IMG/VR virus record: IMGVR_UViG_3300044972_001033
Span: 1-37,025 of that record
DNA: 37,025 nt
Strand: one strand, 5' to 3'
From: a virus
This document shows positions 4,180 to 29,373 of this stretch, in pieces; position 1 is the first letter of the stretch; each line of letters begins with the position of its first letter. Both the position numbers and the translations under genes were made by a program. The notes under the pieces were generated by a model that saw only the letters and a program-made list of their open reading frames with translations, was not told the DNA's origin and did not search any database.

Positions 4180-4184
4180 TAAAC

Positions 4185-12871: not shown

Positions 12872-13015
12872 ATGTTGCCAACAGTAGGAAGTAAGGTTAT
12901 AATTAAAAACAAAGTTTATAAGGTTGAGGAACTTTATAAAGAAAGTATGTTGGTTTCTTTTGGTGACAAATTTATATGTTTTTATTACAACGAAATAGAA
13001 AGTTATGCGATTTAA
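12872..13015 (+). CDS. Small unknown protein before the tail chaperone (47 aa)
   Basis: ATG 12872 to TAA 13013-13015. The product begins MLPTVGSKVIIKNKVYKVEE and looks like a small beta-barrel of the SH3-like or KOW type, with alternating hydrophobic strands. It overlaps the next gene by 11 bp. The function is unknown. The close promoter box and overlap support expression. Confidence 0.5.
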   Translation: MLPTVGSKVIIKNKVYKVEELYKESMLVSFGDKFICFYYNEIESYAI

Positions 13016-13741: not shown

Positions 13742-13810
13742 CATTATCAAAATTAATTACTAATATTGCATAGGGTTTTATGTTTTTTTATTGTCTTATT
13801 TATACTTGGA

Positions 13811-13837
13811 GTGGGTACATTAGTACCCGCTTTTTTA
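13811..13837 (+). terminator. Rho-independent terminator before the tape measure
   Basis: GTGGGTAC (13811-13818), loop ATTA, GTACCCGC and then T6 (13831-13836). The 8-bp stem has one G-T pair at its second position and Watson-Crick pairs otherwise. It separates the chaperone transcript from the tape-measure promoter 6 bp downstream. Confidence 0.85.
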
Positions 13838-13842
13838 TTAAT

Positions 13843-13879
13843 ATTCATAAAGAATAAATACGGCATATTGTTAAATTTG
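13843..13879 (+). promoter_or_regulatory. Late promoter candidate 1 (ATTCATAAA-N20-TAAATTTG)
   Basis: ATTCATAAA at 13843 begins exactly 29 nt before TAAATTTG (13872-13879). The same element and spacing recur at 20016, 23424, 27209 and 29316. The longer 17-mer here (13843-13859) matches the copy at 23424 at 16 of 17 positions. It lies between a terminator and the tape-measure start (13887), so it must serve this operon. Confidence 0.65.
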
Positions 13880-13886
13880 TTGGTTA

Positions 13887-16220
13887 ATGGCTAATGATAA
13901 TGATATAATTGCAAAGCTAAAAGTTGAGGGACTTTCTCAATTTAAAGTTGAAATGTCGCAAAGCTCTAAAGCGGTTGATAGTACAACGGTTTCTATTAAT
14001 AAAATGGAAAAGGCTATCACTGAAGCCACAGACCCAAAAGACGTACAAAGACTTACAAAAGAATTAGAGGCTGTAAAGATTGCAAGTGAAGCGGGTGCTA
14101 CTGCATTTGAAAGTTCTAAGGCTAAATTAAGAGCCTACAAAGAAGAGGCAACAGGACTTGCAGTTGTATTAGCTACTTTAAAAAGTGAGGGTAAACAAAA
14201 TACACAAACTTTTAAAGACATTGAAAAACAGTTTGAAGCTACAAAGCGAAAAGCGGGTGACTTATCCGACCAAATAGGTGATATTAATCAGGAAATTAAA
14301 GCATTAGGTAGTGATACACGTGGAATAGATAACGTGGTGCGTGGTGCTACTTTAATGGCTAATGGCTTTCAATTGGTAACAGGTGTTCAGGCTTTATTAG
14401 GAAAAGAAAACAAGGCTTTATCTGAAGGGTTGTTAAAGCTAAACGGAATAATGGCAGTTACTCAATCTATTCAACAAATAGGTAATGAGTTGACACGTGA
14501 GGATTCAATCGTAAAACAAGCTGCAACAAAGGCAACAGCATTATATAATATGGTTGTCGGTCAAAGTACAGGCGTTATGAAAGTTTTTAAAATAGCTTTA
14601 GCATCAACAGGTATAGGATTATTGGTTATTGCTATTGGTACTTTAGTAGCTAACTTTGATAAGTTAAAGTCTTTTGCAGTTCAATTATTTCCGACATTAA
14701 ATGGCTTAGGTGACAGGTTCACAAAGTTAAAAGATAACGTTATTTCCTTTGTTAAGAACGGAATAGGAAATTTATTAAATTCATTCATAGACACCTACAA
14801 TGAGAGTCTAACACTTAGAACGGTTATTGTGGGAATTGGAGTATCATTTAAGACATTAGCACAATTAGTAATAGTAAACGGAAAAGCAATATTTACAATA
14901 TTCAGTTCAATAGGTCAGGCTATATTACACCCTACAAAAGCACTAAGCATATTAAAAAGCGGATTAGGAAAGATATTTGATAACTACAAAGAGTTTGGCG
15001 GAACGGTTGTAAAGAACATAAAAGACGGTGCTGAAATTGCAGTTAAAAGCCGTTTAAATAGAATTGACATATCTAAATTAGTAGATGAAGAAAAAACAAA
15101 AGAATCTGGTACTAAAATAGCAAAAGAAATAAAAAGTAAGGCAGAAACTGAATTGCAAAACAATCCTGTAACTTTAAATGTAGAGTTAGGAGTTACAAAT
15201 GGATTTGATGTATTAGATGCTAAAATAAAAGAAACACAGGAATTATTAGAGTCTTTATATACAGGTGAATTAGCAAGTGGTGGTAATCCAAACGAGAATC
15301 CACAAATACTATACCTTTTAGACCAACTTAAAAAACTTAAATTAGAACTTGAAACTACTAAAGCGGATTTTGATGCATTGGTTAATCCATCAAGAGCAAC
15401 GCCAAACGTACCAAAAATAGCTGGTGGCGGAAAGTCTAAAAGTCAACCTTCATTTTGGGATACCTATTTTGGAGATAAAGCAACGCAATTAAGCAGAGCG
15501 GAAGGTGCAAAGAAAATAATAGAAGATATAAATTCTTATGGAGTTCAAATTTCAAATATTGCAGAACAAGCAATACAAATAAGAGCAAGTAATGAGTTAA
15601 CAGCATTAGAAGAAAAAAGAGATAAGGGTATTATTACAGAAAAAGAATATGAAAAGAAATCAGCAGAAATTAAAAATGAAGCTGCAAGGAAAAAACGTGC
15701 AATTGATATTGCTAATGCAACGGCTCAAATACCTGTTGCGGTGTTGTCGGCTTACATTGCAGGTATGCAAATTGGCGGTGTAGCAGCACCAATTGTTGCT
15801 GGTGTATTAGCAGGTGTTGCGGGTGCGTTTGGTATTGCACAGGTAGCATTAATTGCAGCAGCACCACTTCCCAAATTTAGGGAAGGTGGGTCGGTAGCTA
15901 AACGTTTAGGATTAATCAAAGGCGCAAAGCATGAACAAGGCGGTGTACCTATTGAGGTTGAAGGTGATGAATTTGTGGTAAAATCACAGGCTACAAAGAA
16001 ATACGGTGTAAAAATGTTAGATGATATTAACAATTTACGATTTAATCCTATTCTAAGCGCAAATAAGAAACTTAAAACACAAAGCAATGATTTACGTTTA
16101 TACGAAAATTTAGCTACCATATCAAGCTATTTAAAACAAGGTTATAAAGTAGATGCAAACGGCAATCAGATACTAAAAGAAATTAGCAATAAGTTAAATA
16201 ATAAGTCAATTTATGTTTAG
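13887..16220 (+). CDS. Tape measure protein
   Basis: A 777-residue protein that sets tail length and passes through the tail tube on injection. The N-terminal 150 residues are coiled-coil and Lys/Glu-rich (KLKVEGLSQFKVEMSQSSKA). A hydrophobic segment lies at about 232-256 (ALASTGIGLLVIAIGTLVAN). A long Ala/Gly-rich hydrophobic stretch occupies about 611-665 (VAAPIVAGVLAGVAGAFGIA). It is followed by the conserved C-terminal block KFREGG...GAKHEQGGVPIEVEGDEFV. At roughly 1.5 angstrom per residue it predicts a tail near 115 nm. It overlaps the next gene by 8 bp. Confidence 0.92.
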   Translation: MANDNDIIAKLKVEGLSQFKVEMSQSSKAVDSTTVSINKMEKAITEATDPKDVQRLTKELEAVKIASEAGATAFESSKAKLRAYKEEATGLAVVLATLKSEGKQNTQTFKDIEKQFEATKRKAGDLSDQIGDINQEIKALGSDTRGIDNVVRGATLMANGFQLVTGVQALLGKENKALSEGLLKLNGIMAVTQSIQQIGNELTREDSIVKQAATKATALYNMVVGQSTGVMKVFKIALASTGIGLLVIAIGTLVANFDKLKSFAVQLFPTLNGLGDRFTKLKDNVISFVKNGIGNLLNSFIDTYNESLTLRTVIVGIGVSFKTLAQLVIVNGKAIFTIFSSIGQAILHPTKALSILKSGLGKIFDNYKEFGGTVVKNIKDGAEIAVKSRLNRIDISKLVDEEKTKESGTKIAKEIKSKAETELQNNPVTLNVELGVTNGFDVLDAKIKETQELLESLYTGELASGGNPNENPQILYLLDQLKKLKLELETTKADFDALVNPSRATPNVPKIAGGGKSKSQPSFWDTYFGDKATQLSRAEGAKKIIEDINSYGVQISNIAEQAIQIRASNELTALEEKRDKGIITEKEYEKKSAEIKNEAARKKRAIDIANATAQIPVAVLSAYIAGMQIGGVAAPIVAGVLAGVAGAFGIAQVALIAAAPLPKFREGGSVAKRLGLIKGAKHEQGGVPIEVEGDEFVVKSQATKKYGVKMLDDINNLRFNPILSANKKLKTQSNDLRLYENLATISSYLKQGYKVDANGNQILKEISNKLNNKSIYV

Positions 16221-18174
16221 GGTGTATTTCGATGGAATAGAGCAAAACGAAAAAGACATCATAAATATTAATGATGTTGCACAGTTTAGTATAATTCGTG
16301 AAGATGGGTTTAGTTCAGATGAACAAATACTAAGAGATAAAACCGAAATGGATTTACAATTTTGTGGCGGTGCTTATAGTTACATTTGCAACAAGATAGC
16401 TACAGATAGATGTAATGAAATTGAATTTAGGATTGAAGATGATGAAACAGGATTGTTTTACAATGGAGTTATTCCTGTGACATTATGCGAATTAGACTTA
16501 AGTAAAAACATAGGCAAAACAAAAATAAAAGATAACTCGTTTAGTGCCTTTATTCGTGACTATTTGGATGTTGATGTTTTTTTAGGTGCAACAAAAACAA
16601 TAGGATGTAATGAATTGCCATTAAGCAGAAAAGATTTTATATTTAACAAAGTACACAATACTAATTTACAGGCTGATGAAATAACCATTTTTGCTTTTGA
16701 TGTATTGGATGTATTTAATCAAATGATAGGTTATTTTACAAACAATGAAATGTATGTAGTATCAAACTATCTTACATCAAACAAGTATGCAATTACAACA
16801 GGATTTAATATGCATAACTTTGCATTTAGTGAAAGAGATTTATACCCTGAATTAACAATGCAAGACTTATTTGCCGAATTACGAAAGAAGTTGAATATAT
16901 TTATAGGTATTGAATACGATGTGGCAAACAGACCGTATTTAAGAATTGAACAGTTACCTTATTTCTTTTCAAATACCATTCCGCTATTTAATATTAATGA
17001 GATTCCGCAAGGTGCTATACAGACTTATGACATAGAACGTGACTTTAATTTAATAAGCATTGGTAGTAATACATTTGAAACTGAAGACCCAGCTAATGAG
17101 TTTTATAACGAGAATAGACAAGACGGATGGATAGACAGTAAGTACACATCTTGCGGAACTTGCACAGGCAGAAAGGATAATAACTTAGATTTGGTAAGTG
17201 ATTACATTATTTCAAGTAATGTTATTTATGAAGCTATAAATGCAGGTGGGGTTGACTATACAAATGACGATGCTATATTTTTGTTTAATTACGAGGTTTC
17301 AGGTGTTAGCAATGTTGTAAAAAGAGATTTAATAGATACTGAATATGTTTATAATATTAGTTTAATTAATTCAAGTGTATTGCAGAATTTTATTAACTAT
17401 TTTGCAAATTGTATAGCGGTAAGTAGATATCCCGCAAATGGTTTCTTAATTCAAAAAACAGAAAAATTAATTAGTAAAATACTTGGAACACCTATTGAAT
17501 TTGATGTTATTGTTTATGATGATAGTATTGTAACTGATTATTATAGCGGAACACCGAGTTATAATCTACCGCCTAATATAATGTTTCCAGTAACTGGTGT
17601 ACCAAGTAGTGACCCTATAAGATATTTTAAATCACCTGTAACTGGTGATTATAATTTACGTGCTGCTGTAAATAAAATATTTAGTAATGGTACAGTTACT
17701 ACTGCTGATGCACAAATACAGATAATAATATATACAGATGATACATTTACAACTATTTCAACATACTTTGAGAAAACAATTACATCAACAGATGGATTTT
17801 TTACACCACAATCATTAGAAATTGAAACAGGTGTTATAACAATTAATGCAGGTGAATGTGCTATAGTTGCACTTTATTTAACTACAACACCAATAGGTAT
17901 GTTATTATATGGTTATATAGCATCTGAAATTTCTTTTGAAATGTTAACAGATGGAAATTGTGTAAGTATAAACGAAAATAACCAAGATAGTAAGCCGTTT
18001 GTTTTAGACTTTGAATATCCTTTATGTTTCTCCGATTACCAAACGGCAAAAGAAAATAAAAACGGTTACATAGATATTACAGGTAAAAGATATTGGATAA
18101 GAGAATTAACGTACAGACATAACAGATTGTCGAATTTAAAACTAATGGGTAACTATTCGCTTTGCGGATGCTAA
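16213..18174 (+). CDS. Distal tail / tail-tip structural protein (putative)
   Basis: A 653-residue, mostly beta protein directly after the tape measure, the usual place of distal tail or tail-tip components. The N-terminal part starts MFRVYFDGIEQNEKDIININ and has repeated beta-sheet patterns. Residues from about 440 to 590 look like a jelly-roll or carbohydrate-binding-like insert (YYSGTPSYNLPPNIMFPVTG). Cysteines are notable: CGTCTGR near residue 315 and a C-terminal LCGC. No enzymatic motif was found. The role is by position and size. Confidence 0.65.
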   Translation: MFRVYFDGIEQNEKDIININDVAQFSIIREDGFSSDEQILRDKTEMDLQFCGGAYSYICNKIATDRCNEIEFRIEDDETGLFYNGVIPVTLCELDLSKNIGKTKIKDNSFSAFIRDYLDVDVFLGATKTIGCNELPLSRKDFIFNKVHNTNLQADEITIFAFDVLDVFNQMIGYFTNNEMYVVSNYLTSNKYAITTGFNMHNFAFSERDLYPELTMQDLFAELRKKLNIFIGIEYDVANRPYLRIEQLPYFFSNTIPLFNINEIPQGAIQTYDIERDFNLISIGSNTFETEDPANEFYNENRQDGWIDSKYTSCGTCTGRKDNNLDLVSDYIISSNVIYEAINAGGVDYTNDDAIFLFNYEVSGVSNVVKRDLIDTEYVYNISLINSSVLQNFINYFANCIAVSRYPANGFLIQKTEKLISKILGTPIEFDVIVYDDSIVTDYYSGTPSYNLPPNIMFPVTGVPSSDPIRYFKSPVTGDYNLRAAVNKIFSNGTVTTADAQIQIIIYTDDTFTTISTYFEKTITSTDGFFTPQSLEIETGVITINAGECAIVALYLTTTPIGMLLYGYIASEISFEMLTDGNCVSINENNQDSKPFVLDFEYPLCFSDYQTAKENKNGYIDITGKRYWIRELTYRHNRLSNLKLMGNYSLCGC

Positions 18175-18184
18175 ATAAAAAGAT

Positions 18185-19681
18185 ATGAGATTTCCTAAGT
18201 ACCAATGGATGCAAGGTGAACCTGAAAATGATGGTTGCGGTTTCTGTGATGTGTTGTATAAAACACAGAATGCAGAGGGTGCAAGTGGCAATTCATTTCA
18301 GGTAATATTAGACACTACAAACATTGTAGATAATACATTCGATACAAATCCGTTTGATTTAATTACAAGTACAGATTTGGAGTTTGATTTGGAACAAGCA
18401 CCAATAGGAAATCAATTTCAATTATACATTAACGCAAATGTTTATGTAATAACATGGGCGGTTGATGTTGTACCGAGTACAGGTTTTGATTATGTGCAAG
18501 TAGATAACGTTTATTTTGTTAAGGTTCAATTGGCAGGTACGGACTTAGATTCAAGATTGAACTTTAGACAGATGCTAATTGATTTAGTTGACGTAAACGA
18601 GGGAACAACATCAAGTTTAACAAGTACAACATTTACTATTGCAAATATGCCAACAGGCTCATACTTAAATAACTTTGCTTTTGTAGATTCAATAAACACG
18701 GTAACACCATCAACTAATATAGGTAAATACTTTTATTGGAACGAAAACGCTATTAACTATTATCACTTCTTGTCAGCAGGTACAGATATAATATTTCAGT
18801 TTGAAGAAACACTAAACAACGCACAATTAACACTTTTAAAGTTTTATTACAATTCTGTTAGTTCTACATTTGGATTGACAATTACAATAGATAACGGTAT
18901 AGATACGCCAACAGTTTACACGCCAACAGTAGGATTAGGTGGTATTATAGAGATTGAATACACACCGACATTAACAGGAACGCACACAATAGAATTATTA
19001 TTAGCAGACCCTGAAGATATAGAAAGCGGTTTTAGTTTAGAAAGATTTACCGCCGATGAACTTATTGAGGTTGTTTCTTTAGATGTTGAGGATTGCAACG
19101 GTAACATAACACCGTTCGATTATAACTATGTTTACTATACAGACATTAGAAATGATAACGTTATTTTGTTTGATTTGGCAGACCAATACCCAGATGTGTT
19201 TAGGTTTATTATTACCGATTCGGATGATAATACACTTACTTCACGTTGGTATAAAGTAGGTGACAAAGACGATTGTATAAACGGTAAGTTATATTCAGTT
19301 AAATGGACTAACACTTGTAATTTAGGTGAAATAGACTATTCAGGATTGCCATTTACAAACGAATTACTTTTAAGTGGTGTATTGATTAAAAGCCAAAACG
19401 AGTTATTAGATAACGTGGAAAATGTAACGGCTTCAGGAAAGAAAGTTAGTATCTATAAAAACACACAGTCTTTATATGAATTTAGATTGCATCCTTATTT
19501 ATCAGATACATTTGAAACTATATTAGAGAGTATATTTATGCATGATAACGTAACTATTAACGCTGTAGGATATAACGCAACCGATACGCTACAAACTTCT
19601 GAATTAGATTTACAAGTATATACAGGCAGAGTAGATTTATATAAAGATGGAACTAACTTAATATCTAAGAATTGTTGCTAA
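18185..19681 (+). CDS. Tail structural protein with terminal Cys motifs (putative)
   Basis: A 498-residue beta-rich protein, probably a tail-tip or minor tail subunit. The N-terminus carries GCGFC at residues 17-21 and the C-terminus ends KNCC. The middle (about 220-290) has Ile/Thr-rich strands like an Ig-type or receptor-binding domain (TLTGTHTIELLLADPEDIES). The gene lies 10 bp after the previous tail gene and is followed by the only reverse-strand gene, whose 3' end overlaps it by 17 bp. No known family was recognised with confidence. Confidence 0.6.
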   Translation: MRFPKYQWMQGEPENDGCGFCDVLYKTQNAEGASGNSFQVILDTTNIVDNTFDTNPFDLITSTDLEFDLEQAPIGNQFQLYINANVYVITWAVDVVPSTGFDYVQVDNVYFVKVQLAGTDLDSRLNFRQMLIDLVDVNEGTTSSLTSTTFTIANMPTGSYLNNFAFVDSINTVTPSTNIGKYFYWNENAINYYHFLSAGTDIIFQFEETLNNAQLTLLKFYYNSVSSTFGLTITIDNGIDTPTVYTPTVGLGGIIEIEYTPTLTGTHTIELLLADPEDIESGFSLERFTADELIEVVSLDVEDCNGNITPFDYNYVYYTDIRNDNVILFDLADQYPDVFRFIITDSDDNTLTSRWYKVGDKDDCINGKLYSVKWTNTCNLGEIDYSGLPFTNELLLSGVLIKSQNELLDNVENVTASGKKVSIYKNTQSLYEFRLHPYLSDTFETILESIFMHDNVTINAVGYNATDTLQTSELDLQVYTGRVDLYKDGTNLISKNCC

Positions 19682-20021
19682 GTATCATTTTAATCATTTG
19701 CAATCTTTGAATTAAAGCATCTTTCTTTTCTTTACAAGCCATTACTTTAACTAACTTTGTAGGATATACGTTATTTCGATATATCCATATATTTTTAAAT
19801 AGCGTTTCTTTCTTTAAAAAAGGACAGAAACAAATATCATAATAAACTCCGTTATCGTGTCCGTAAATCATTACTATAATGCTATCTATTTCATTTACAA
19901 TATCTGAATACATTATACGCTTACCTTTTACAGACTTTCTTATGTAATTTACATTAAATCCAAGTTTAGAAAGTGAATGTCTTTTTTCTTTATTAGCTTC
20001 TGAAAATAATATAAAATTCAT
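19665..20021 (-). CDS. Reverse-strand unknown protein (118 aa)
   Basis: The only gene read from the reverse strand. It fills an otherwise empty 388-bp gap in the tail module and has a plausible protein sequence starting MNFILFSEANKEKRHSLSKL, with hydrophobic strands (IDSIIVMIYGHDNGVYYDIC) and a basic helical C-terminus. It has its own promoter on the reverse strand (TTTG-N19-TATCTTTA). No family was recognised. It looks like a moron, an extra gene with its own promoter; superinfection exclusion or host take-over roles are possible but unproven. Confidence 0.6.
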   Translation of the reverse strand: MNFILFSEANKEKRHSLSKLGFNVNYIRKSVKGKRIMYSDIVNEIDSIIVMIYGHDNGVYYDICFCPFLKKETLFKNIWIYRNNVYPTKLVKVMACKEKKDALIQRLQMIKMILSNNS

Positions 20022-20052
20022 AAATAAAGTTTAAGTAAAGATAGTACTTTTG
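20016..20052 (+). promoter_or_regulatory. Late promoter candidate 2 (ATTCATAAA-N20-TACTTTTG)
   Basis: ATTCATAAA at 20016-20024 begins 29 nt before TACTTTTG (20045-20052), the same spacing as at 13843. It precedes the gene at 20070 and the tail-tube candidate at 20263. The element overlaps the start codon of the reverse-strand gene, so part of the match could come from that coding sequence. Confidence 0.55.
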
Positions 20053-20066
20053 ATTAATAAATCAAA
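20036..20066 (-). promoter_or_regulatory. Reverse-strand promoter (TTTG-N19-TATCTTTA)
   Basis: On the reverse strand TTTG (20066-20063) is followed after 19 nt by TATCTTTA (20043-20036), one base from TAnnTTTG. Transcription would start about 8 nt before ATG 20021. It overlaps the forward late promoter, so the two probably exclude each other. Confidence 0.55.
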
Positions 20067-20069
20067 TAA

Positions 20070-20276
20070 ATGTATAGTATTGATTTCGAAGTAAACGGCA
20101 AAATCTTAAAAAAAACAGCCAAAACAGAAAAAGAAGTAAGACGATTAGTTTACGTTTATACTTTAGGTAGCCAACAAGAAAAAAATACTTTAATAAGCGA
20201 AATCGTGTCAAAAAAAGACATAGAAAATATTGAAAAATTAATCAAAGCTAAAAAAGAAAAACATGTCAATTTGTAA
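20070..20276 (+). CDS. Unknown small protein (68 aa)
   Basis: A basic protein starting MYSIDFEVNGKILKKTAKTE, with a beta strand followed by a Lys-rich helical C-terminus (DIENIEKLIKAKKEK). It is the first gene after the 20016 promoter and overlaps the tail-tube candidate by 14 bp. The function is unknown; it may be a small chaperone for the following structural protein. Confidence 0.5.
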   Translation: MYSIDFEVNGKILKKTAKTEKEVRRLVYVYTLGSQQEKNTLISEIVSKKDIENIEKLIKAKKEKHVNL

Positions 20277-20871
20277 ACCAAACTGCGTAACAGGACTGCC
20301 AAATTTTGGCGCAATAAATGACTGTGATTTACAGGCTTCATTCTCGAGTGGTGAGATTGCAAGTGTAATTTTCACTAAATGTAATCTTGATATTGACGAT
20401 GTTGATGACCCTACTGAATGGGAAACAAACATTATCAATGCTGACGTTACAATACCTTTTGCTGGTAATGGAAAAATAGATGAACAAACTGAAAGCGGTG
20501 AATATAGAGTGGGATGTCAAACGGTATCTTCTATCTGTAAAAAACCTTTTGAGTTTATTTCGCCAGTTGTAGATACGGCTACACAAACGGAATGGGATTT
20601 ATACAACCAAATTCAAAAACAGCGTTTAGGATTGCAAGTATCTTTTTTAACGTGTGATGGTATCTTATTAATTGACCCTGACTGGACTACAGGTAACACA
20701 ATCGGCTTACCTTTGTCAATGCTTAAAATCTCACAGATATTTAGCGGAGAAACGGATGGTAAAATGACATACAAGATTAACGGTGAAATTACAGAGTGCC
20801 GTTCATTAAAACGTGTAAAGTTATCACAGGATACAATTGACATTCTTACTGAAGCAAACGCAGGTTCTTAA
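20263..20871 (+). CDS. Virion structural protein, tail-tube candidate
   Basis: A 202-residue protein without enzyme motifs. It begins MSICKPNCVTGLPNFGAIND, and its alternating strand pattern, including GLPLSMLKISQIFSGETDGK and a C-terminal KLSQDTIDILTEA, suits a tube-forming fold. Size (about 22 kDa), a dedicated promoter and its place at the end of the tail block point to the major tail protein. The N-terminal C-x3-C motif fits the cysteine-rich ends seen in other structural proteins here. The alternative is a head-tail joining protein. Confidence 0.5.
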   Translation: MSICKPNCVTGLPNFGAINDCDLQASFSSGEIASVIFTKCNLDIDDVDDPTEWETNIINADVTIPFAGNGKIDEQTESGEYRVGCQTVSSICKKPFEFISPVVDTATQTEWDLYNQIQKQRLGLQVSFLTCDGILLIDPDWTTGNTIGLPLSMLKISQIFSGETDGKMTYKINGEITECRSLKRVKLSQDTIDILTEANAGS

Positions 20872-20893
20872 TCCAAACGATAACGGTTAGTGA

Positions 20894-22549
20894 ATGCACA
20901 ATTACACAAACAGGTTAAGCAGTCTATCAAAATGGAGAAATCCTGTAAATGATATAAAAGACCCTTTAAAACAAAGGTGGGCGGAGATAGTACAAACTAT
21001 GTCCACTCACATGGAGGGTGTATGTCCTTTGCATATTTACGTTAACAGAAGACCAATTGAAAGCCAAAATACGTATGCAATTGAGTACAGGGTTAACAAC
21101 TACCAACCACTTACTAAAAGTGCATTTGATAGAGCCATAAACGGTATTATAGAGAATTGTCAATCAGCAGACGTACAGATAAAAGCACCTGACTTAATTT
21201 TAAATGGTGACTTTAAAATACACGACAAAGACATTTTCTACTTTGCACAAAGCGATTTAGTTCGTATTCGTGAAACGGATTCTAATGCCGTTATTGTCGT
21301 ATTTCCAAAGATAGAAGAAATTGACAGCGATAATGTTTCTATTGTAGGAATTGAAATACTTTTAGTAAAAAGTAAAGACATTGAAGAAATATATGGTAAT
21401 GAAATTGAATTTGTAGCGGGTAAAACTGACAAAGGACATAAAATTTATTATAAAGTAAAAGAAGGTCAATACTCGTTTAAATATCCTGACGACAAAGGAA
21501 AGTATACCGAATATCCTATTGTAAAGTTAGCAGATAGAAAGCCTTATGTTTACATTAGTGAAAACGTTGTTTATGAAGGTGATTATAAATTAAGGCTACC
21601 GTATCTGTTTGGTGCTGCTGCGTGGGGAGATAAGTTCTACGGTCAAGAATCCGACTTTAGCGTACAGGCAACACGTTACACTTATTTAAAGGAAATAAGA
21701 GCAAAAGAAAAATGCGATGAAATAGGCTATATTTTTAGAGATGGTAAGCATATTGATTCTGCTACAGGTAATATTTGTGGCAAGTGTAACGGCTCGGGAT
21801 TTGTAAAAGATGATTCACCTTTAGGAACTATTTACGTTGATTATTCAAAACTAAATGGAGAGGAAAGAGCATTTCCGCAAGTTATTCAATGGGCAGAACC
21901 ACCACAGGCAGCGTTAACTTCATCTAAAGAAATAACAGATACTTATTTTGATAGAATGACAGAATCTTTAGGGTTGATTAAACAAAACAATACAAATCAA
22001 TCGGCTGTTAGTAAAGAGTATGACTATAAACAACAGATAAGTACAATTTATAAGATATTCTCGGATAACGTGCGAGTTGCTACGTCTGTTTACAGAATGA
22101 TAGAATACTTTTTAGCAGATGAAAACGAACAAACAACTGAAGTATATTTAGTTGGTGAAATCGGAAAAAGTACGGTTAGTGACTTGTTAGAAAAATTAAC
22201 CGAAGCAAAAAAGAATAATTCACCAGCTTCTATAATTACGTCATTTTTAGACCAAATATATCAAAAGACATTACCTCAAGATATATCTGATTTGGTTATT
22301 AAAATAGCTAAAGCATACGATAAGCTATATATTTATGGTAGCAACGAGGTTGTACAGGCTAAAGCACAATTTGGCAACTCATTAACTGAAAAAGATATTA
22401 TAGTTCATAATACTATAATTGATGTATTGACAACTTACTTAAAGGAAAATGGATTACAAGAGGATGCAACTATAATTAGTTACTTAGATACTTACTACGC
22501 AAAATATAACACAGTTATACAGACAGCAACTTCATTAGGATTGTTATGA
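20894..22549 (+). CDS. Portal protein (putative)
   Basis: A 551-residue protein upstream of the MuF-like, scaffold and capsid genes, the usual portal position and length. It is helical and acidic toward the C-terminus, with the stretch PQVIQWAEPPQAALTSSKEI (about 337-356) and MTESLGLIKQNNTNQSAVSK characteristic of portal stems and crowns. An unusual feature is CGKCNGSGF at about residue 294, a zinc-ribbon-like C-x2-C-x-G-x-G knuckle. It starts at ATG 20894 and overlaps the next gene by 4 bp. It would form the dodecameric DNA channel at one vertex. Confidence 0.75.
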   Translation: MHNYTNRLSSLSKWRNPVNDIKDPLKQRWAEIVQTMSTHMEGVCPLHIYVNRRPIESQNTYAIEYRVNNYQPLTKSAFDRAINGIIENCQSADVQIKAPDLILNGDFKIHDKDIFYFAQSDLVRIRETDSNAVIVVFPKIEEIDSDNVSIVGIEILLVKSKDIEEIYGNEIEFVAGKTDKGHKIYYKVKEGQYSFKYPDDKGKYTEYPIVKLADRKPYVYISENVVYEGDYKLRLPYLFGAAAWGDKFYGQESDFSVQATRYTYLKEIRAKEKCDEIGYIFRDGKHIDSATGNICGKCNGSGFVKDDSPLGTIYVDYSKLNGEERAFPQVIQWAEPPQAALTSSKEITDTYFDRMTESLGLIKQNNTNQSAVSKEYDYKQQISTIYKIFSDNVRVATSVYRMIEYFLADENEQTTEVYLVGEIGKSTVSDLLEKLTEAKKNNSPASIITSFLDQIYQKTLPQDISDLVIKIAKAYDKLYIYGSNEVVQAKAQFGNSLTEKDIIVHNTIIDVLTTYLKENGLQEDATIISYLDTYYAKYNTVIQTATSLGLL

Positions 22550-23415
22550 AGCCTTCAGAAATTATAGACAAAGGTGATACTATACTATATAGTATTAACG
22601 ATTTAGATAAACGTATGTATAAGCGTTTAGTTAAGTTTTTAGCTAATAACTCATTAGGTGGCAAGGTTAATATTACAAACGAAGACTTAGCGCAAATAGA
22701 AGATATTATATACGACGAAGTAAAGAGTTCAGAATATGAAGAAAACATAGCTAAGTATTTAATGTTGCTGAATAAATTAGAGGATTCAATAAGTCAACAG
22801 CAGTTTGATATAAATAGAATAAAAGCGCAAAACATTAAAGACTTATGGAATGGCGATATTTTGAAAACTAAGTTAAGAGATAAGATAGTTTATGATTTAG
22901 GAGCAAATGGTATTAAAGACTATTTTGTAAAAGGAATTGCAGAGGTTGTACGTGAAGCTAATTACTTTAATCTTACTATTGACGATGCTATTGATAGGCT
23001 TGGAAAGGTTCTAATAGATGATGAATATACTAATAGATATTTACAGCAAACGTCAAGAGATGCGCTTAGTCAATATCAGGGTGCTATTAATGACGCAGTG
23101 CGTGTTGCTTATGAATTCAAAGATATTATTTATGTAGGAAACACAATTGAGAATACACGCCCTATTTGCGCTCATTTAAGAGACACGTTAAAAGGTAGAA
23201 TTACAGGTGAGCAACTTAAACAGACATTAGCTGAATACTGCCCTAATGGAATACCAAGTAAAAAGAAGATAACATATACAACGGTAAAAGGCGATGAACA
23301 CACAGCAAGTAAAGGAAGCGGAATGATTGAGGGAACGAGATACGATAATTTTGCACAGTTAAGAGGTGGTTACGGTTGTAGGCATGAGGCTATTTGGGTA
23401 CGTGCTAAAAAATAA
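22546..23415 (+). CDS. MuF-like minor head protein (putative)
   Basis: A 289-residue protein coupled to the portal gene by a 4-bp overlap. The C-terminal part has the pattern of MuF/SPP1 gp7-type head morphogenesis proteins: an AQLRGGYGCRHEAIWV motif near the end, preceded by VGNTIENTRPICAHLRDTLK (about 199-218), with His and Cys residues. The N-terminal half is helical. These proteins sit inside the capsid near the portal and some are injected with DNA. No toxin domain is fused to it. Confidence 0.75.
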   Translation: MKPSEIIDKGDTILYSINDLDKRMYKRLVKFLANNSLGGKVNITNEDLAQIEDIIYDEVKSSEYEENIAKYLMLLNKLEDSISQQQFDINRIKAQNIKDLWNGDILKTKLRDKIVYDLGANGIKDYFVKGIAEVVREANYFNLTIDDAIDRLGKVLIDDEYTNRYLQQTSRDALSQYQGAINDAVRVAYEFKDIIYVGNTIENTRPICAHLRDTLKGRITGEQLKQTLAEYCPNGIPSKKKITYTTVKGDEHTASKGSGMIEGTRYDNFAQLRGGYGCRHEAIWVRAKK

Positions 23416-23423
23416 AATACAAA

Positions 23424-23460
23424 ATTCATAAAGAATACATTTCAATTAGATTTAATTTTA
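23424..23460 (+). promoter_or_regulatory. Late promoter candidate 3 (ATTCATAAA-N20-TAATTTTA)
   Basis: The 17-mer beginning ATTCATAAAGAATA at 23424 matches that at 13843 at 16 of 17 positions, and a TAATTTTA box (one mismatch to TAnnTTTG) starts exactly 29 nt later at 23453. It lies in the intergenic gap before the scaffold/capsid genes (23475 onward). Confidence 0.65.
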
Positions 23461-23474
23461 ATAAAAATATCTCT

Positions 23475-23786
23475 ATGAGTAACAAAGTTCAATTATTTCC
23501 TGCCAGACCAAACGTCGGCAAAGATGTTGTAACTCCCGAATGGTTTTCGGAAGGTATGGCAAAAAAAATGGTTAAGACTAAATTATGGTCTTACACACCT
23601 GTTGCAACAACACAGGATGATATAAACCTAATGTTAGACAGAGCAAAAGGTGAATTAAAAGCAGATTCAGAAGCAATAGCTTTAGAAAAAGAAAGATTGA
23701 AAGCAGAACGTGAGGAATTGGAAGCATTAAGAGCCGAATTGTTAACAAAGACTAAAGTTGATGGTCGCAAAAAAACGGAGGTCTAA
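23475..23786 (+). CDS. Unknown coiled-coil protein upstream of scaffold (103 aa)
   Basis: The first 50 residues are Pro- and Trp-containing and probably form a small domain (VQLFPARPNVGKDVVTPEWF). The rest is a Glu/Lys/Leu-rich coiled coil (EAIALEKERLKAEREELEAL). It lies directly before the scaffold gene with no gap, so it may be a scaffold partner or a head decoration or assembly factor. No family was recognised. Confidence 0.55.
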   Translation: MSNKVQLFPARPNVGKDVVTPEWFSEGMAKKMVKTKLWSYTPVATTQDDINLMLDRAKGELKADSEAIALEKERLKAEREELEALRAELLTKTKVDGRKKTEV

Positions 23787-24599
23787 ATGAGTGATTTAAA
23801 AGTAGAACAACTGCAATCATTTTTTAAGTCAGTAGGTTTAGAAGATAGCGACTTTGATAAAATTAGTAAAGAAGATATTGAGGATTTTACGCCTTATGTA
23901 GAAAAAGCAAAATCGGGTATTAGAGAGGTGCTTATGGCAGATACTACCTTTCTTGATGAAATTTCACGACCGTATAAAGATGCACCGATAGGAAAGGAAA
24001 AGCAACTAAAAAAAGAGGTTCGCAAGTTCTTTAACTTACAGATAAAAGAAGATGATTTGGCAAAGATGCCATTGTCTGAAATATTGGCACAGGGTACGGA
24101 ACATTTAAAGTCAACAACAACAACTGATATTGACAAACTTAAAAACGATTATTCTTTATTATTAGAAGAAAATGAGCGTTTAAAAAATGAAGAAATACCT
24201 AACAAGATTTCTGAAATTGAAAACACTTGGAAACAAAAGATTCAATCTAAGGATATTTTTGAGGAGTTGATGGGTGAGGTGGCTAAAGAAACTCAAGTGC
24301 AAAAAGAAAATATCTCAATGTTTGCCACAACATTTCAGGGTTATTTATCTCAATCAGGATTCAAATTAGATATTGATTCTAAACGTGCATTAAAGATTAA
24401 AGATGCTGAAGGTTTGCCAGCAAAAAATAAAGACGGTGGTATCTTACACTTGAAAGAAGCATTAAGAGATTTTTCTACTAAGATGCAAGTAAATGTTAAG
24501 CCAGTAGGCGGTGCAAGTGGCACAAGTCAAACAGGTGGAGCATCAAAATATAAGGAACTTTTAAACAATAGTTTTGGAAAGGGTTTCGCAAAAGCATAG
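23787..24599 (+). CDS. Scaffolding protein (putative)
   Basis: A 270-residue, highly charged, mostly helical protein directly upstream of the major capsid gene. It has a long coiled-coil centre (IDKLKNDYSLLLEENERLKN) and a Gly/Ser/Thr-rich flexible linker (PVGGASGTSQTGGASKYKEL) leading to a short basic C-terminal helix ending FGKGFAKA. This is the layout of phage scaffolds, whose C-terminal helix binds the capsid protein during procapsid assembly. No protease motif was seen, so capsid maturation may need another protein. Confidence 0.75.
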   Translation: MSDLKVEQLQSFFKSVGLEDSDFDKISKEDIEDFTPYVEKAKSGIREVLMADTTFLDEISRPYKDAPIGKEKQLKKEVRKFFNLQIKEDDLAKMPLSEILAQGTEHLKSTTTTDIDKLKNDYSLLLEENERLKNEEIPNKISEIENTWKQKIQSKDIFEELMGEVAKETQVQKENISMFATTFQGYLSQSGFKLDIDSKRALKIKDAEGLPAKNKDGGILHLKEALRDFSTKMQVNVKPVGGASGTSQTGGASKYKELLNNSFGKGFAKA

Positions 24600-24642
24600 T
24601 GAGTGTGACTGCATTGAGTGTCATTTAATTGGGTGGTTGACC

Positions 24643-24689
24643 TTAAACAACATTAAACAAATTTATTAAACAAATTAAATGTAAACAAA
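24643..24689 (+). promoter_or_regulatory. A-rich repeated leader before the major capsid gene
   Basis: TTAAACAA occurs three times (24643, 24653, 24666), and the longer ATTAAACAAATT twice (24652 and 24665), followed by GTAAACAAAATG at the start codon. Bacteroidota ribosomes favour A-rich, Shine-Dalgarno-free leaders, so this repeat may raise translation of the capsid protein. No promoter box was found in the 90-bp gap. Confidence 0.45.
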
Positions 24690-25805
24690 ATGGGTACAAT
24701 TTCAACGGCTTTTAATGCCATAACAAATGCATCATGTGCGGAAATCGTAATTGATATTACAGAAACGGCACTATCAACATCAAACTTAGGAACGCCACAG
24801 GGTTTCTTAGGAGCAGTAACGTCTGCTGAAAACGTAGGTTCTTTTGAATTGGCTTTAAATCCAAACAAAGACAGACCATCTGCGGGTTCTTTTACAAAGG
24901 TATATACAAGTGATACTATTCCTTTGTGTAATCAAGATACCGAAGCGGATGGAGCCTGTGCAACGCCTTCATACACACCTGATGACGTAGCGTCTAAATT
25001 CAAAGCAGTAGAACATCAAGTAAACGAGTCTATTCAGCGTAAAATTACAATGGATTTGGAAGCATTCCAATCTTTCTGTATTTCACCTGCAGAATACTTA
25101 CGCAAACGTTTACTTGCAATGCGACAAGGTGTAGTGGCAGAAATTAACGGTAAATTAGTACCAAAAGCTATTGCTTATGCTGGTGCTTATGCAAACGGTG
25201 TATCTTCAGTAACGCCTTCCGTAAACGTATCTTTTATTACAGCAAATGCTAACGGTGGTTATATGTTTGACCCTACAGGCTATGCTAAGATTAAAGACGA
25301 ATACGCTCGTATTGGTTCACCTTACATCACTCCGTTTATTGTTGGCGGTTCACACGTTGGAACATTAGAAACATTTAACGGATTTACGCAAGGTGGTACT
25401 AACGTTAACGGAGTTACAAGAACAGCTATTCCTAACTTATGGTTAGATTACACAGTAGATGAAGTATTTGCAGATGGAAACAACAACTTAGTTACATGGT
25501 CGCCAGGCGTTTTACAAGCGGTGGGTACATCTGCTATTTCTGATGCAATGATTGCGTTGTCAGTTCCTAACTTCAGAGAAAAAATGAGAGTTCCTGACCC
25601 TTTTGGAACAGGTTTAATGGGTGACTGGGATTTCTATTTCGATGTGGATTCAACAGGTTGTATTTACGAAATGAGATGGGAAAAATACTTTGACTTAATT
25701 ACACCTGTGCCTTACGGTACTTGTGCTAATAAACCAATCCTAAACTTTACAGTTGATTGTGAAGGCAATGCTTGTCCTGATTCAGGAAGCGGAAGCGGTT
25801 CTTAG
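24690..25805 (+). CDS. Major capsid protein
   Basis: A 371-residue protein following the scaffold gene. It is well balanced in composition with Pro/Gly/aromatic-rich turns, typical of HK97-fold capsid proteins (SPYITPFIVGGSHVGTLETF; YTVDEVFADGNNNLVTWSPG). The C-terminal end is Cys-containing and then Gly/Ser-rich (DSGSGSGS), possibly a flexible exposed tail. The strong A-rich leader and following terminator fit very high expression. The position (portal, MuF-like, scaffold, then this) supports the assignment. I recognised no specific sequence family. Confidence 0.8.
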   Translation: MGTISTAFNAITNASCAEIVIDITETALSTSNLGTPQGFLGAVTSAENVGSFELALNPNKDRPSAGSFTKVYTSDTIPLCNQDTEADGACATPSYTPDDVASKFKAVEHQVNESIQRKITMDLEAFQSFCISPAEYLRKRLLAMRQGVVAEINGKLVPKAIAYAGAYANGVSSVTPSVNVSFITANANGGYMFDPTGYAKIKDEYARIGSPYITPFIVGGSHVGTLETFNGFTQGGTNVNGVTRTAIPNLWLDYTVDEVFADGNNNLVTWSPGVLQAVGTSAISDAMIALSVPNFREKMRVPDPFGTGLMGDWDFYFDVDSTGCIYEMRWEKYFDLITPVPYGTCANKPILNFTVDCEGNACPDSGSGSGS

Positions 25806-25819
25806 TATTATCTTTTAAT

Positions 25820-25852
25820 AAAAAAGGCTATCAGAAATGGTAGCCTTTTTTT
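25820..25852 (+). terminator. Terminator after the major capsid gene
   Basis: AAAAAAGGCTA (25820-25830) pairs with TAGCCTTTTTT (25841-25851), with two more inner pairs around a 6-nt loop. The A-run before and T-run after the stem would let it work in both directions. It isolates the capsid transcript from the HNH-glycosyltransferase unit. Confidence 0.88.
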
Positions 25853-25859
25853 ATATTTG
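25852..25859 (+). promoter_or_regulatory. -7 box TATATTTG before the second HNH gene
   Basis: TATATTTG overlaps the end of the terminator T-run and is followed by only 4 nt (tact) before ATG 25864. The transcript would be almost leaderless. No clear -33 element was found because the terminator stem occupies that position. Confidence 0.45.
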
Positions 25860-25863
25860 TACT

Positions 25864-26388
25864 ATGGAAGTTTGGAAAGACATTAAAAATTATGAAGGTT
25901 ATTATCAAGTAAGCAATTTTGGTAATGTAAAATCACTAAGTAGGGAAATGCTTGTACGTGGTAAATATCCTTTTGTATCAAAAGAGAAATTATTAAAAAA
26001 AGCATTAGGCGGTCAATTTTTAACTGTTGCATTATGGAAAGATAGTGTTGTAAAAACAAAAACAGTACATCAACTAATGGCAGAAACATTTTTAAACCAC
26101 AATCCAAATGGTCATAACTTAGTAGTAAGGCATAAAGATGGCAATAAGCTAAATAACCATATTGATAATTTAGAAATAGTAACGCAAAGAGAGGTTTCAA
26201 TTAAGAATAATTATAAAAAAACAAGCAAATATACAGGTGTTAGTTGGAATAATAAATACAAAGCATGGGTTTCTTTCATCTGTATAAATGGCAATACAAA
26301 ATACTTGGGAAGGTATTCAACAGAATTAGAAGCGCATAATAAATACCAACAAGTATTGAAAGATTTATCTTTAAATAAAACAGCATGA
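25864..26388 (+). CDS. NUMOD4-HNH-AP2 homing-type endonuclease
   Basis: Start ATG 25864 is chosen because it aligns with the NUMOD4 start of the paralogue at 9016; an in-frame ATG at 25837 lies inside the terminator. The 174-residue protein has NUMOD4 (MEVWKDIKNYEGYYQVSNFG), an HNH motif (RHKDGNKLNNHIDNLEIVT, about 88-106) and a C-terminal AP2 DNA-binding domain (YTGVSWNNKYKAWVSFI and LGRYSTELEAHNKY, about 122-162). It is a homing-type nuclease inserted between the capsid gene and connector genes. It ends with a 4-bp overlap onto a glycosyltransferase gene. Confidence 0.9.
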   Translation: MEVWKDIKNYEGYYQVSNFGNVKSLSREMLVRGKYPFVSKEKLLKKALGGQFLTVALWKDSVVKTKTVHQLMAETFLNHNPNGHNLVVRHKDGNKLNNHIDNLEIVTQREVSIKNNYKKTSKYTGVSWNNKYKAWVSFICINGNTKYLGRYSTELEAHNKYQQVLKDLSLNKTA

Positions 26389-27293
26389 AAGCAATTTACG
26401 CTTTTTATAGTAAGCCTTTTGGCGTTGACATAAGACGTGCCAAAACACATTGGATTGATACTTCATCTGAATTTTATATAATGGCTTATTCAGTTTTAAA
26501 GTCAAAAGAACATGGTTTTGAAACGGTTTTATTTACTGATAAGTATGGCAAAGAATTAATTATTGATACTTTACAGATTCCGTTTGATATAGTAAAAGTA
26601 GAATTAGACTTTTGCGAGATTAAATTAAAATGGTGGGCATCGGGAAAAATATACGCATATACAAAAGGAATAGAAAGTTTAGGAAAGTTTGAGCCGTTTA
26701 TGATGTTGGATAATGATGCGGGTTGGCACTCAAAACCACCATTACACTATTTGCAATCTAAGTACCGATGTCAATCAATACACATAGATACTAATACGGA
26801 GTTTGAACGCCAAATAATGCGTATTGTAAAAGATAATCACAATGTATATCCATTTGATATTTTTCATGAAATACTTAAAAACAAACAAGAGGTTAAAGGC
26901 GGGAATGCTGGTGTAATTATAATGAATGATGAAAGGTTATGGCGTGAGTTTTCACGTTATACATGGGATTTAATGAATCATCCTTACTTTGATAAGATAG
27001 CAAAAGAAAACACAAAAGAAGCCAATATTTATAAGGCTATGAATAAATGGAATGTTACTATTGAAGAAAACTTGTTATTACAGTTAAGCCGTAGGTTAAA
27101 TAGTCAATTACCTGAAACGGTTTTTGAGTTTACAGGATTTGCAACGCCAATTGAAAACCATAATCCTACAGGATTTTATCATATCTGGGGTTCTAAGAAA
27201 AATATAAAATTCATAAATGCATTTAAACAATTAGCTATATCTTACATTCCTAAAGAGTTGTCAGAAAGAATAGACAATTTTTTCAATAAATAA
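26385..27293 (+). CDS. Glycosyltransferase-like protein (DUF6734-type)
   Basis: A 302-residue protein starting MKAIYAFYSKPFGVDIRRAK. A strand-turn LFTDKYGKELIIDTL (about 50-64) and the DxD-like PFMMLDNDAGWHSKPP (about 103-118) mark a GT-A-type glycosyltransferase. The segment GGNAGVIIMND (about 173-183) matches the acceptor-side loop of such enzymes. It resembles the Bacteroidota DUF6734 family as I remember it. It is coupled to the upstream HNH gene by ATGA. Lying beside the capsid gene, it might glycosylate virion proteins, but it may simply be carried with the HNH gene. Confidence 0.65.
   Translation: MKAIYAFYSKPFGVDIRRAKTHWIDTSSEFYIMAYSVLKSKEHGFETVLFTDKYGKELIIDTLQIPFDIVKVELDFCEIKLKWWASGKIYAYTKGIESLGKFEPFMMLDNDAGWHSKPPLHYLQSKYRCQSIHIDTNTEFERQIMRIVKDNHNVYPFDIFHEILKNKQEVKGGNAGVIIMNDERLWREFSRYTWDLMNHPYFDKIAKENTKEANIYKAMNKWNVTIEENLLLQLSRRLNSQLPETVFEFTGFATPIENHNPTGFYHIWGSKKNIKFINAFKQLAISYIPKELSERIDNFFNK
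27209..27245 (+). promoter_or_regulatory. Late promoter candidate 4 (ATTCATAAA-N20-TATCTTAC)
   Basis: ATTCATAAA at 27209-27217 begins 29 nt before TATCTTAC (27238-27245), which keeps 4 of the 6 fixed bases of TAnnTTTG. It lies inside the 3' end of the glycosyltransferase gene, 50 nt before the structural gene at 27295. It is the weakest of the set, and it is in coding sequence. Confidence 0.35.
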
Positions 27294-27294
27294 T

Positions 27295-28209
27295 ATGGCA
27301 ACAGTTGACAGCAATATAACGGTAGCCTCCAACGCTTGTAGAGATGTAATTGGGGTGAAAGGGATATGTGATACCACATATCCTTATTATTTAGATAGCT
27401 TAGGTATTTCATTAAGCAAAACGTCTAAGTTGGCAGATAGTTCAATGATTACGGCACGTGAATTAATTACAGAGTCAATTGATGACGGATGGGGAACGGT
27501 ATTTAGTGATTTAAGAGCGGATGGATTCAATGTTAATGGCGTTCAAAAAACTAACGAAACATTCTTTGTAGCTGGTGAATATCAGAATGCTGGTATTTAT
27601 ACATTTACATTACAAAGAAACTGTGATATAGAACAAATCTTTATAGGCAAAGCAAAGTTAAATGTAGTTGGTGACTTAGATGTATTGGTTACTTTAAATG
27701 CAGACGGTGCGATAACTACTATTTATAACGATTCATTAAGTGATGAAACATTGACTATAAACTTTGACAATTCTTACACTTATGATACAATTATTTTAAC
27801 GGTAACTGCAATAGGAAGCGGAACTATACAACAAACAAACGATGGCGGTGTTATTAAAATAGATAGTTATGTTTTTTGTTCTGAAAATCTTTTTTATTGC
27901 AAGTATTGGAATTTCTTAGTGAAAGCAGTAATGTATAAAGCGACTGCTAATATTCTTAACTCTTCTTTGTTTTCTGATAGATATAATGATTTAATTGTTT
28001 ACAAAAAAGATGAAATTGCAATCAGAATAGCACAATTAGACAGTTCATTAAACTTATTACCAACGGATGCAAGGATAGGAACAATAGGTTTATATCAATT
28101 AGAAATTATAAAGATAAACGACAAGTTAAAAGAGATAGTAAAACAGTCTTATTGTACTTGTTGTTTTAAATGTGATAATATTATTAGTTCATTTATATCA
28201 ATACCTTAA
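27295..28209 (+). CDS. Head/neck structural protein (putative)
   Basis: A 304-residue protein. The middle is beta-rich (DIEQIFIGKAKLNVVGDLDV, about 110-130), resembling a jelly-roll or carbohydrate-binding fold inserted in an otherwise helical connector-like protein. The C-terminal region is helical and includes a cysteine cluster CTCCFKC near the end. It is the first conserved structural gene after the inserted HNH-glycosyltransferase unit and would normally follow the capsid gene. Head completion is likely. No family name is given with confidence. Confidence 0.55.
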   Translation: MATVDSNITVASNACRDVIGVKGICDTTYPYYLDSLGISLSKTSKLADSSMITARELITESIDDGWGTVFSDLRADGFNVNGVQKTNETFFVAGEYQNAGIYTFTLQRNCDIEQIFIGKAKLNVVGDLDVLVTLNADGAITTIYNDSLSDETLTINFDNSYTYDTIILTVTAIGSGTIQQTNDGGVIKIDSYVFCSENLFYCKYWNFLVKAVMYKATANILNSSLFSDRYNDLIVYKKDEIAIRIAQLDSSLNLLPTDARIGTIGLYQLEIIKINDKLKEIVKQSYCTCCFKCDNIISSFISIP

Positions 28210-28211
28210 TT

Positions 28212-28376
28212 ATGGGATGTTCATCATGTGGAAAACCTAAAGTTTTTAATAAAGTAAAAGTAACCAGTTCATATACTCCGAAGCCAAATGAGGTTACAAA
28301 GATGACAGATGTTTTTTTGAATTTGACTATCGAAAAAGAAAGCAATGTTTCAAGACAAAATAAAAAGAATACTTAG
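28212..28376 (+). CDS. Small Cys-motif protein (54 aa)
   Basis: ATG 28212 to TAG 28374-28376, starting MGCSSCGKPKVFNKVKVTSS. The N-terminal C-x2-C could bind a metal; the rest is polar and perhaps disordered. It overlaps the next gene by 32 bp. Small proteins with this N-terminal motif recur in Bacteroidota phage neck regions as I recall them. The function is unknown. Confidence 0.5.
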   Translation: MGCSSCGKPKVFNKVKVTSSYTPKPNEVTKMTDVFLNLTIEKESNVSRQNKKNT

Positions 28377-28749
28377 TGGTATAGATAATGTTATTGAGAT
28401 TGCAAAAGCAACGGCAACAGTAGAGATATATGCCTATTCTAAAGATAGGATTTTCAATAAAGGTGAAGATAAAAACTTACAACAAATAGGTGTTTATTCA
28501 AATCCTTATAAAGAAGTAAGAAGTAAAAAAGGATTACAGACATCATTTGTAGACCAAAAATTTAGCGGAAATTTACAACAGTCAATTACTTACAATAAGG
28601 ATTCAATTTATTTTAAAAACGAATACGGTAAAAAGGTTAGCGGTTATAACGAGGAACATTTTAAAAAAAGAATTTACGCACCTACTAAAACAGAAAAAGA
28701 AATTTACTTTGATATACTCAATCAAGAACTAAATAAGTTATGGAAATAA
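28345..28749 (+). CDS. Head closure / tail completion protein (putative)
   Basis: A 134-residue protein with a helical N-terminus (IKRILSGIDNVIEIAKATAT) and a conserved-looking C-terminal half: SYNPYKEVRSKKGLQTSF-like turn, FSGNLQQSI, FKNEYGKKVSGYNEEHFKK and a final amphipathic helix DILNQELNKLW. The alternating pattern and position in the connector block suggest a head-closure or tail-completion role. It overlaps the gene before it by 32 bp and the next by 10 bp. Confidence 0.5.
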   Translation: MFQDKIKRILSGIDNVIEIAKATATVEIYAYSKDRIFNKGEDKNLQQIGVYSNPYKEVRSKKGLQTSFVDQKFSGNLQQSITYNKDSIYFKNEYGKKVSGYNEEHFKKRIYAPTKTEKEIYFDILNQELNKLWK

Positions 28750-29117
28750 TAGAATGCATAAAAAAGAATGATTGGTACGTTCACATAAATGGTGACAGTG
28801 CTTTTAATTCAGAACGTGAGATTGCTTTAATAAAAGAAAATGCAACAGAATACGACTTTGTTTTTTCAGTAGGTTGTAATAAGTTTTACAACGCAATACA
28901 TAAGTATAAATTAATTTATCCGACAGGAAATTATAATGATGCATGGCAATATGTTTTTTCTAAAAAAGGAAACATTACAAGTATTGAAACTGACTTTGAT
29001 ACTATAATGAAAGATGAGGGATTACAGGGCGCATTAGGTAATGTGCGATTGAATAAAATAAATTTTGAAATTAAAACTTTAACAAATGGAAAAGATTGTG
29101 AGCCTTGCAAATGTTGA
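28740..29117 (+). CDS. Unknown connector-region protein (125 aa)
   Basis: A mixed alpha/beta protein starting MEIIECIKKNDWYVHINGDS, with a Tyr/Phe-rich core (KFYNAIHKYKLIYPTGNYND) and a C-terminal CEPCKC cluster. It overlaps its neighbours at both ends (10 and 32 bp). Its place between the head-closure and tail structural genes suggests a connector or tail-terminator role. No family was recognised. Confidence 0.5.
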   Translation: MEIIECIKKNDWYVHINGDSAFNSEREIALIKENATEYDFVFSVGCNKFYNAIHKYKLIYPTGNYNDAWQYVFSKKGNITSIETDFDTIMKDEGLQGALGNVRLNKINFEIKTLTNGKDCEPCKC

Positions 29118-29373
29118 GTTATTTATCTTGTTTTTGCCGTTCTTATCGTTTATGTTGTATGACTTTACACAGTCAGGAATGATATTTCAAAAGTACGGAA
29201 ATTGGTTAAAAAAAATCAATCCATTTTTAGGTAAACCTTTAGGCTTATGCCTTAAATGCTTTCACGTTTGGATAGTGATAATATTTTCTTTGATAATAGG
29301 TGTAAGTTTTATAAAATTCATAATATCACTTGGTATATCTTATGTAATTTTGGTTAAACTATTTTACGATTGA
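29086..29373 (+). CDS. Small membrane protein (95 aa)
   Basis: Two to three hydrophobic segments: VELFILFLPFLSFMLYDF (about 10-27) and a long stretch from about 61 to 92 (VWIVIIFSLIIGVSFIKFII). Between them lies GLCLKCFHVW, a C-x2-C just before the membrane. It begins at ATG 29086 inside the previous gene (32-bp overlap). A membrane protein in the middle of a neck/tail cluster is unusual. It could be an infection-stage membrane factor or superinfection-exclusion protein. Confidence 0.55.
   Translation: MEKIVSLANVELFILFLPFLSFMLYDFTQSGMIFQKYGNWLKKINPFLGKPLGLCLKCFHVWIVIIFSLIIGVSFIKFIISLGISYVILVKLFYD
29316..29352 (+). promoter_or_regulatory. Late promoter candidate 5 (ATTCATAAT-N20-TAATTTTG)
   Basis: ATTCATAAT (8 of 9 to the others) at 29316 begins exactly 29 nt before a perfect TAATTTTG box (29345-29352). 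It lies in the last codons of the membrane protein gene, 17 nt before the TTG start of the structural gene at 29370. Confidence 0.5.

Follow-up and report, generated by a model that had tools for sequence, protein, structure and literature searches.

The window, a 37,025-nucleotide stretch of viral DNA (IMG/VR record IMGVR_UViG_3300044972_001033), carries a TerL gene, supported by PHROGs, just upstream of a tape-measure gene; most late genes of the window are without a family assignment. A sequence-only reading had named structural roles for the genes behind five proposed late promoters, of which the tape measure is upheld by PHROGs, and the labels 'tail tube', 'scaffold', 'neck' and 'adaptor' are without family support. 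The host is probably a member of the Bacteroidota, judging from the promoter type, the relatives of the window primase (Flavobacterium, Polaribacter and Cellulophaga phages) and a match to DUF3127, a family biased toward Bacteroidota. The features at issue are given below; coordinates prefixed g are those of a diverged relative, G001 (IMGVR_UViG_3300007171_000232, locus L006 (L017/L018)), on its reverse complement.

4149..4179, plus strand: early-type promoter TTG-N20-TATCTTTG, ahead of primase gene 4271; control
13005..13619, plus strand: 204-aa gene, conserved at 63% identity, that follows TerL and precedes the first late promoter; alternative candidate for the regulator
13808..13833, plus strand: intrinsic terminator of the TerL/13005-13619 transcript (11-bp stem, -16 kcal/mol, T tract)
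13843..13851, plus strand: putative late element ATTCATAAA, at about -41 to -33; ortholog g11209 (ATTCATAAT)
13872..13879, plus strand: putative -7 box TAAATTTG, 7 nt 5' of the tape-measure ATG (13887); near-leaderless mRNA predicted
19665..20021, minus strand: 118-aa gene, conserved at 31-33% identity in G001; candidate regulator of the late genes
20016..20024, plus strand: putative late element ATTCATAAA, extended to TATAAAATTCATAAA from 20010; ortholog g17526
20036..20065, minus strand: opposing early-type promoter, TTG (20065-20063)-N19-TATCTTTA (20043-20036), 14 nt before the minus-strand ATG
20045..20052, plus strand: putative -7 box TACTTTTG, 17 nt ahead of the ATG at 20070
23424..23432, plus strand: putative late element ATTCATAAA, intergenic; ortholog g20929
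23453..23460, plus strand: putative -7 box TAATTTTA, one mismatch, 14 nt ahead of the ATG at 23475; ortholog box TAATTTTG
27209..27217, plus strand: putative late element ATTCATAAA, within ORF 26385-27293; orthologous place g23379
27238..27245, plus strand: degenerate -7 box TATCTTAC, two mismatches, preceding gene 27295
29316..29324, plus strand: putative late element ATTCATAAT, within ORF 29086-29373; ortholog g25426
29345..29352, plus strand: putative -7 box TAATTTTG, 17 nt ahead of a TTG start at 29370

Five ATTCATAAW elements, each with a TAnnTTTG-like box starting 29 nt after it, had been described from the letters alone; all five elements and boxes were recovered with the sequences and positions listed, the 29-nt register holds at every site, and the tally of boxes (three perfect, one with one mismatch, one with two) and of elements overlapping ORFs (three of the five) is correct. 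The C and the ATAA of the element core are invariant across sites. Over both strands of the window ATTCATAAW is itself enriched, with 12 copies against 3.8 expected, and a box at +29 follows just five of them, the plus-strand copies of the late region; the six minus-strand copies, unlisted in the sequence-only reading, have none there (0/6).

Chance matching, or conservation of overlapping coding sequence, would draw on those ORF overlaps and on the AT-rich composition of an element that occurs a dozen times, and is barely credible as an account of these sites. A null of the shuffled type proposed earlier, run as Markov-2 and Markov-4 models with the exact motif ATTCATAA-N21-TAnnTTTG, gave a mean of 0.006 against three window matches, and a scan of spacings from 8 to 80 found more than one box at +29 alone. 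In a PWM scan that took in its own training sites, the sites scored at least 25.8 bits, with the next best in the window at 11.6. The loose pattern (up to three mismatches) is barely enriched in the window (28 against 19.1), so only strict matches count; the combined motif with its fixed spacing is far above chance, and decisively so.

The relative G001, found by a TerL search of IMG/VR (TerL 68% identical), has late proteins approximately 31-68% identical to those of the window, with their order kept. A motif search in related phages, also suggested at the outset, was made with the motif fixed from the window before G001 was scanned, and found four exact matches where 0.001-0.003 were expected; one further site, the sixth, has a 19-nt spacer, all six boxes are TAATTTTG, and the other strand and a reversed-motif control gave zero matches. 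Four orthologous pairs (13843/g11209 at the tape measure, 20016/g17526, 23424/g20929 and 29316/g25426) keep 41/44 element positions (93%) and 29/32 box positions (91%), with 32/80 kept in the spacer (40%) and 39/72 upstream. For the intergenic pairs, spacer identity is as low as 8/20 (13843/g11209) and 4/20 (23424/g20929), with element and box retained, which speaks against both chance and coding constraint. Conservation at 29316/g25426 is partly protein-level, since 29316 lies within a conserved coding frame (K-F-I-I...Y-V-I-L), and the 20016/g17526 pair spans the conserved MNFI start of the minus-strand gene; the clean evidence therefore lies in 13843/g11209 and 23424/g20929, plus g15605 and g23379. 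For the set as a whole, a chance or coding explanation is already refuted. For 27209 alone, the weakest and a doubtful member given its poor box and its position within an ORF, chance is possible.

This fifth site forms a pair degenerate on opposite halves, 27209 joining a perfect element to a poor box, and g23379 (AAACATAAA-N20-TAATTTTG, ahead of the same downstream gene) joining a perfect box to a poor element. Past a terminator at 25820-25851 the window has an HNH endonuclease gene and a 302-aa gene (25837-27293), both lacking from G001, where a terminator is followed directly by g23379; insertion may thus have displaced the original window promoter.

G001 is the only independent relative in the searched collections. 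Searches of IMG/VR with the TerL, the tape measure, the capsid region and the 20894 gene returned just G001, the near-identical 24-kb contig G002 (identical at TerL and the covered sites, and not independent) and L007, a 7.9-kb fragment of the upstream region; GTDB genomes held no TerL relatives, and the capsid-region, 20894 and 16213 proteins had no match in the phage collection.

The -7 element of Flavobacterium spans -12 to -5, with starts 4-5 nt past the element, according to PMC6847099, a distance that would place ATTCATAAW at -41 to -33. In the two phage genomes the box TAnnTTTG (TAHHTTTG in Flavobacterium) is perfect at nine of 11 late sites; the spacer between element and box is N20 at ten of them and N19 at one, always in the same orientation, and with N20 the last three element bases occupy the TTG position exactly. 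The normal -33 TTTG had been called absent, and a TTG or TTTG at N19-20 upstream of the box is indeed found at 0/11 late sites; this absence is weaker evidence than was implied, since detecting the -33 motif is difficult in the host group as well, as reported for Flavobacterium johnsoniae in PMC6847099 and likewise in PMC7366714. The argument is carried instead by the contrast with the lineage's own early promoters: TTG lies 19-20 nt upstream in 4/6 replication-region box-like controls (4149, g1199, g3547 and L007), among them the 4149 promoter, to which a normal TTG had rightly been ascribed.

Intrinsic terminators abut four late sites (13843, g11209, g15605 and g23379), as would suit boundaries between successive units, with that at 13808..13833 directly 5' of the first late promoter. 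The distance from box to ATG at these sites is 7, 5, 4 and 4 nt, respectively, from which leaders of approximately 0-3 nt, and hence near-leaderless mRNAs, are predicted; leaderless mRNAs make up only 5.5% in F. psychrophilum (PMC9723704). The proposed separation of a late class from the replication-region promoters holds up on orthology, fixed spacing, single orientation, adjoining terminators and a different upstream element. Read from the DNA itself, conservation, register and the contrast with early-type promoters point to a class of late promoters with a phage element in the place of the -33 TTG; from this we infer promoter activity, its lateness and a phage-encoded activator.

The extended motif AAATTCATAAW-N20-TAATTTTG matched 17 stretches in IMG/VR, G001 accounting for four; with the box relaxed to TAHHTTTG there were 72 matches, and G001 alone among 2.9 million contigs had more than one. 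The 84,980 bacterial and archaeal genomes (257 billion bases) held 92 matches, each in a separate record and spread over many phyla, with no genome having two. Singletons in bacteria and repeats in G001 alone indicate a signature of this phage lineage and give no sign of a bacterial regulon. Single copies of TATAAAATTCATAAT-N20-TAAYTTTG also occur at L008:1136-1178, L009:3684-3726, L010:883-925, L011:4335-4377 and L014:58-100; these loci, from one unrelated viral family, were rejected as lineage members, the matches being judged coincidental because each is a single copy embedded in longer conserved sequence.

These counts bear on whether the host holoenzyme could read the element directly, through sigma region 4 or the alpha C-terminal domain, as a -33/UP-like sequence, making the sites strong constitutive promoters without a phage factor, with any lateness arising from gene dosage once replication has taken place. 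The -7 box is that of the host, and in Flavobacterium both AT-rich tracts upstream and weak -33 motifs are usual (PMC6847099), so that late promoters might need no activator. Such direct reading is nevertheless unlikely: the element is sequence-specific and in fixed register, is absent from the early-type promoters of the lineage, and is repeated in no bacterial genome.

The reading we favour, and hold to be probable, is that the five sites are late promoters at which a phage protein replaces the -33 contact on the host polymerase. The phage would use the Bacteroidota-type RNA polymerase of its host, whose primary sigma factor would still read the -7 box TAnnTTTG, and AAATTCATAAW (about -43 to -33, 20 bp from the box) would end at the early-promoter TTG position and take its place. 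A phage protein made early would bind AAATTCATAAW, holding or recruiting polymerase at late promoters, and may occupy the sigma region-4 site; every site would open a late transcription unit, mostly for virion building. An asymmetric element of one orientation and rigid spacing would fit direct contact with polymerase. Of the initial interpretation, the separate late class is strongly supported, and a phage-encoded activator or altered polymerase as the reader of the element is plausible; the regulator search found none, and neither sigma factors nor RNA polymerases are among the family matches of the annotated window ORFs.

A phage sigma factor with a two-part consensus of its own (ATTCATAA / TAATTTTG) would suit the rigid spacing and the uniform boxes of G001. 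It is improbable, since the window boxes follow the host TAHHTTTG and vary at its two free positions, and the window's family matches include no sigma-like protein. Distinctly unlikely, too, is that the element is an operator at which a phage repressor blocks the late promoters early, relief giving late expression. The element does overlap the polymerase footprint (-41 to -33), and a protein bound there could obstruct polymerase; the lack of the early-type TTG at all sites is better explained by replacement than by repression on top, an exact 20 bp to the box at every site is more than a repressor would require, and the element is asymmetric and of one orientation. A dyad-symmetric operator was considered and rejected: the window consensus TTATAAAATTCATAA is self-complementary at 12/15 positions, but individual sites range from 6 to 12.

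A phage-encoded activator, MotA- or Mor-like, is the best inference. The T4 middle promoters (MotA box, AsiA/MotA; PMC2988021, PMC6755090) likewise retain a host -10-type box, carry a short asymmetric phage element, at fixed spacing, in place of the upstream element of the host, and are confined to one temporal gene set. They differ in that the MotA box, TGCTTtA, has its centre at -30 and lies 12 bp from the -10 (PMC2988021), whereas AAATTCATAAW would be centred at about -38, ahead of late-region genes and 20 bp away from a -7 box of the Bacteroidota type. Phage Mu Pm also resembles the late sites, being a host-sigma promoter with an activator site, that of Mor, immediately 5' of the -35 region and partly within it (PMC4390567). 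A dimer binds there to an inverted repeat of 16 bp with its centre at -43.5 (PMC4390567), whereas dyad symmetry at the late sites is inconsistent (6-12 of 15 in the 15-mer across sites). Pfam and PHROGs matches of window ORFs include no MotA or AsiA family, distant analogues being possible, and no Mor/C-family protein was found. Primary-sigma promoters of Bacteroidota (TTTG / TAnnTTTG) share the -7 box and the predicted start distance, and the early-type promoters of the lineage match that type; a specific upstream element of 9-11 bp, as here, is not described in the accessible portions of PMC6847099, PMC7366714 and PMC9723704. No account of temporal promoter classes in Bacteroidota phages was found in the open-licence papers searched, where several result lists were dominated by eukaryotic viruses. 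The late-promoter signature predicts transcription start sites to the base and offers a route to the activator; it may also supply switchable promoters for use in a phylum with transcription machinery unlike that of E. coli.

Gene 19665-20021 on the minus strand has its start codon within the late element at 20016..20024 and an opposing early-type promoter of its own; its G001 counterpart has TTG-N20-TATATTTG, likewise 14 nt from the ATG. Early-type matches arise at about 0.16 per kb per strand, so chance would rarely put two at this position. A protein on the late element would cover the start of this gene, so that late activation and shut-off of the gene could be coupled, and this arrangement makes 19665-20021 the best candidate regulator; naming it the activator is a guess. 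It has no PHROG, Pfam or PDB match and a poor structure model (pLDDT 47). The alternative candidate, 13005-13619, has no family match and a model of the same pLDDT, 47. A recognisable DNA-binding domain is absent from both, and the early regions of the window and G001 have no recognisable DNA-binding-domain protein in common. In the early region of G001 (L006:6565-7234) are genes for a Myb-like DNA-binding protein of 60 aa (6565-6747) and for a NinG homologue (6725-7234), for neither of which a window counterpart was seen. A bolder proposal, and a doubtful one, is sigma appropriation, with the product of 19665-20021 as a phage factor that rewrites the upstream specificity of sigma-ABfr, the divergent primary sigma factor of Bacteroidota, and with several late mRNAs leaderless. 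If true, 19665-20021 would be transcribed early and silence itself at the late element while switching on the opposed late promoter, the two forming a self-limiting early/late switch.

Two further observations concern the regions before the late genes. A conserved leader RNA lies between the early-type promoter and a replication gene at window 4184-4243 (primase) and L007:53-112 (DnaB-like helicase), with an outer stem GCAGG/CCUGC or GCGG/CCGC, a GGCA-loop hairpin, GACUUCC and then a U tract; it has no Rfam match and its folding energy is unexceptional, and it is possibly an attenuator or small RNA. Before TerL (8351-10906), the window has gene 8351, a weak glycosyltransferase-like match (9528-10223) and an FkbM methyltransferase (10163-10906), a region that was not detected in G001 and is conserved in L007 (L007:4420-6430).
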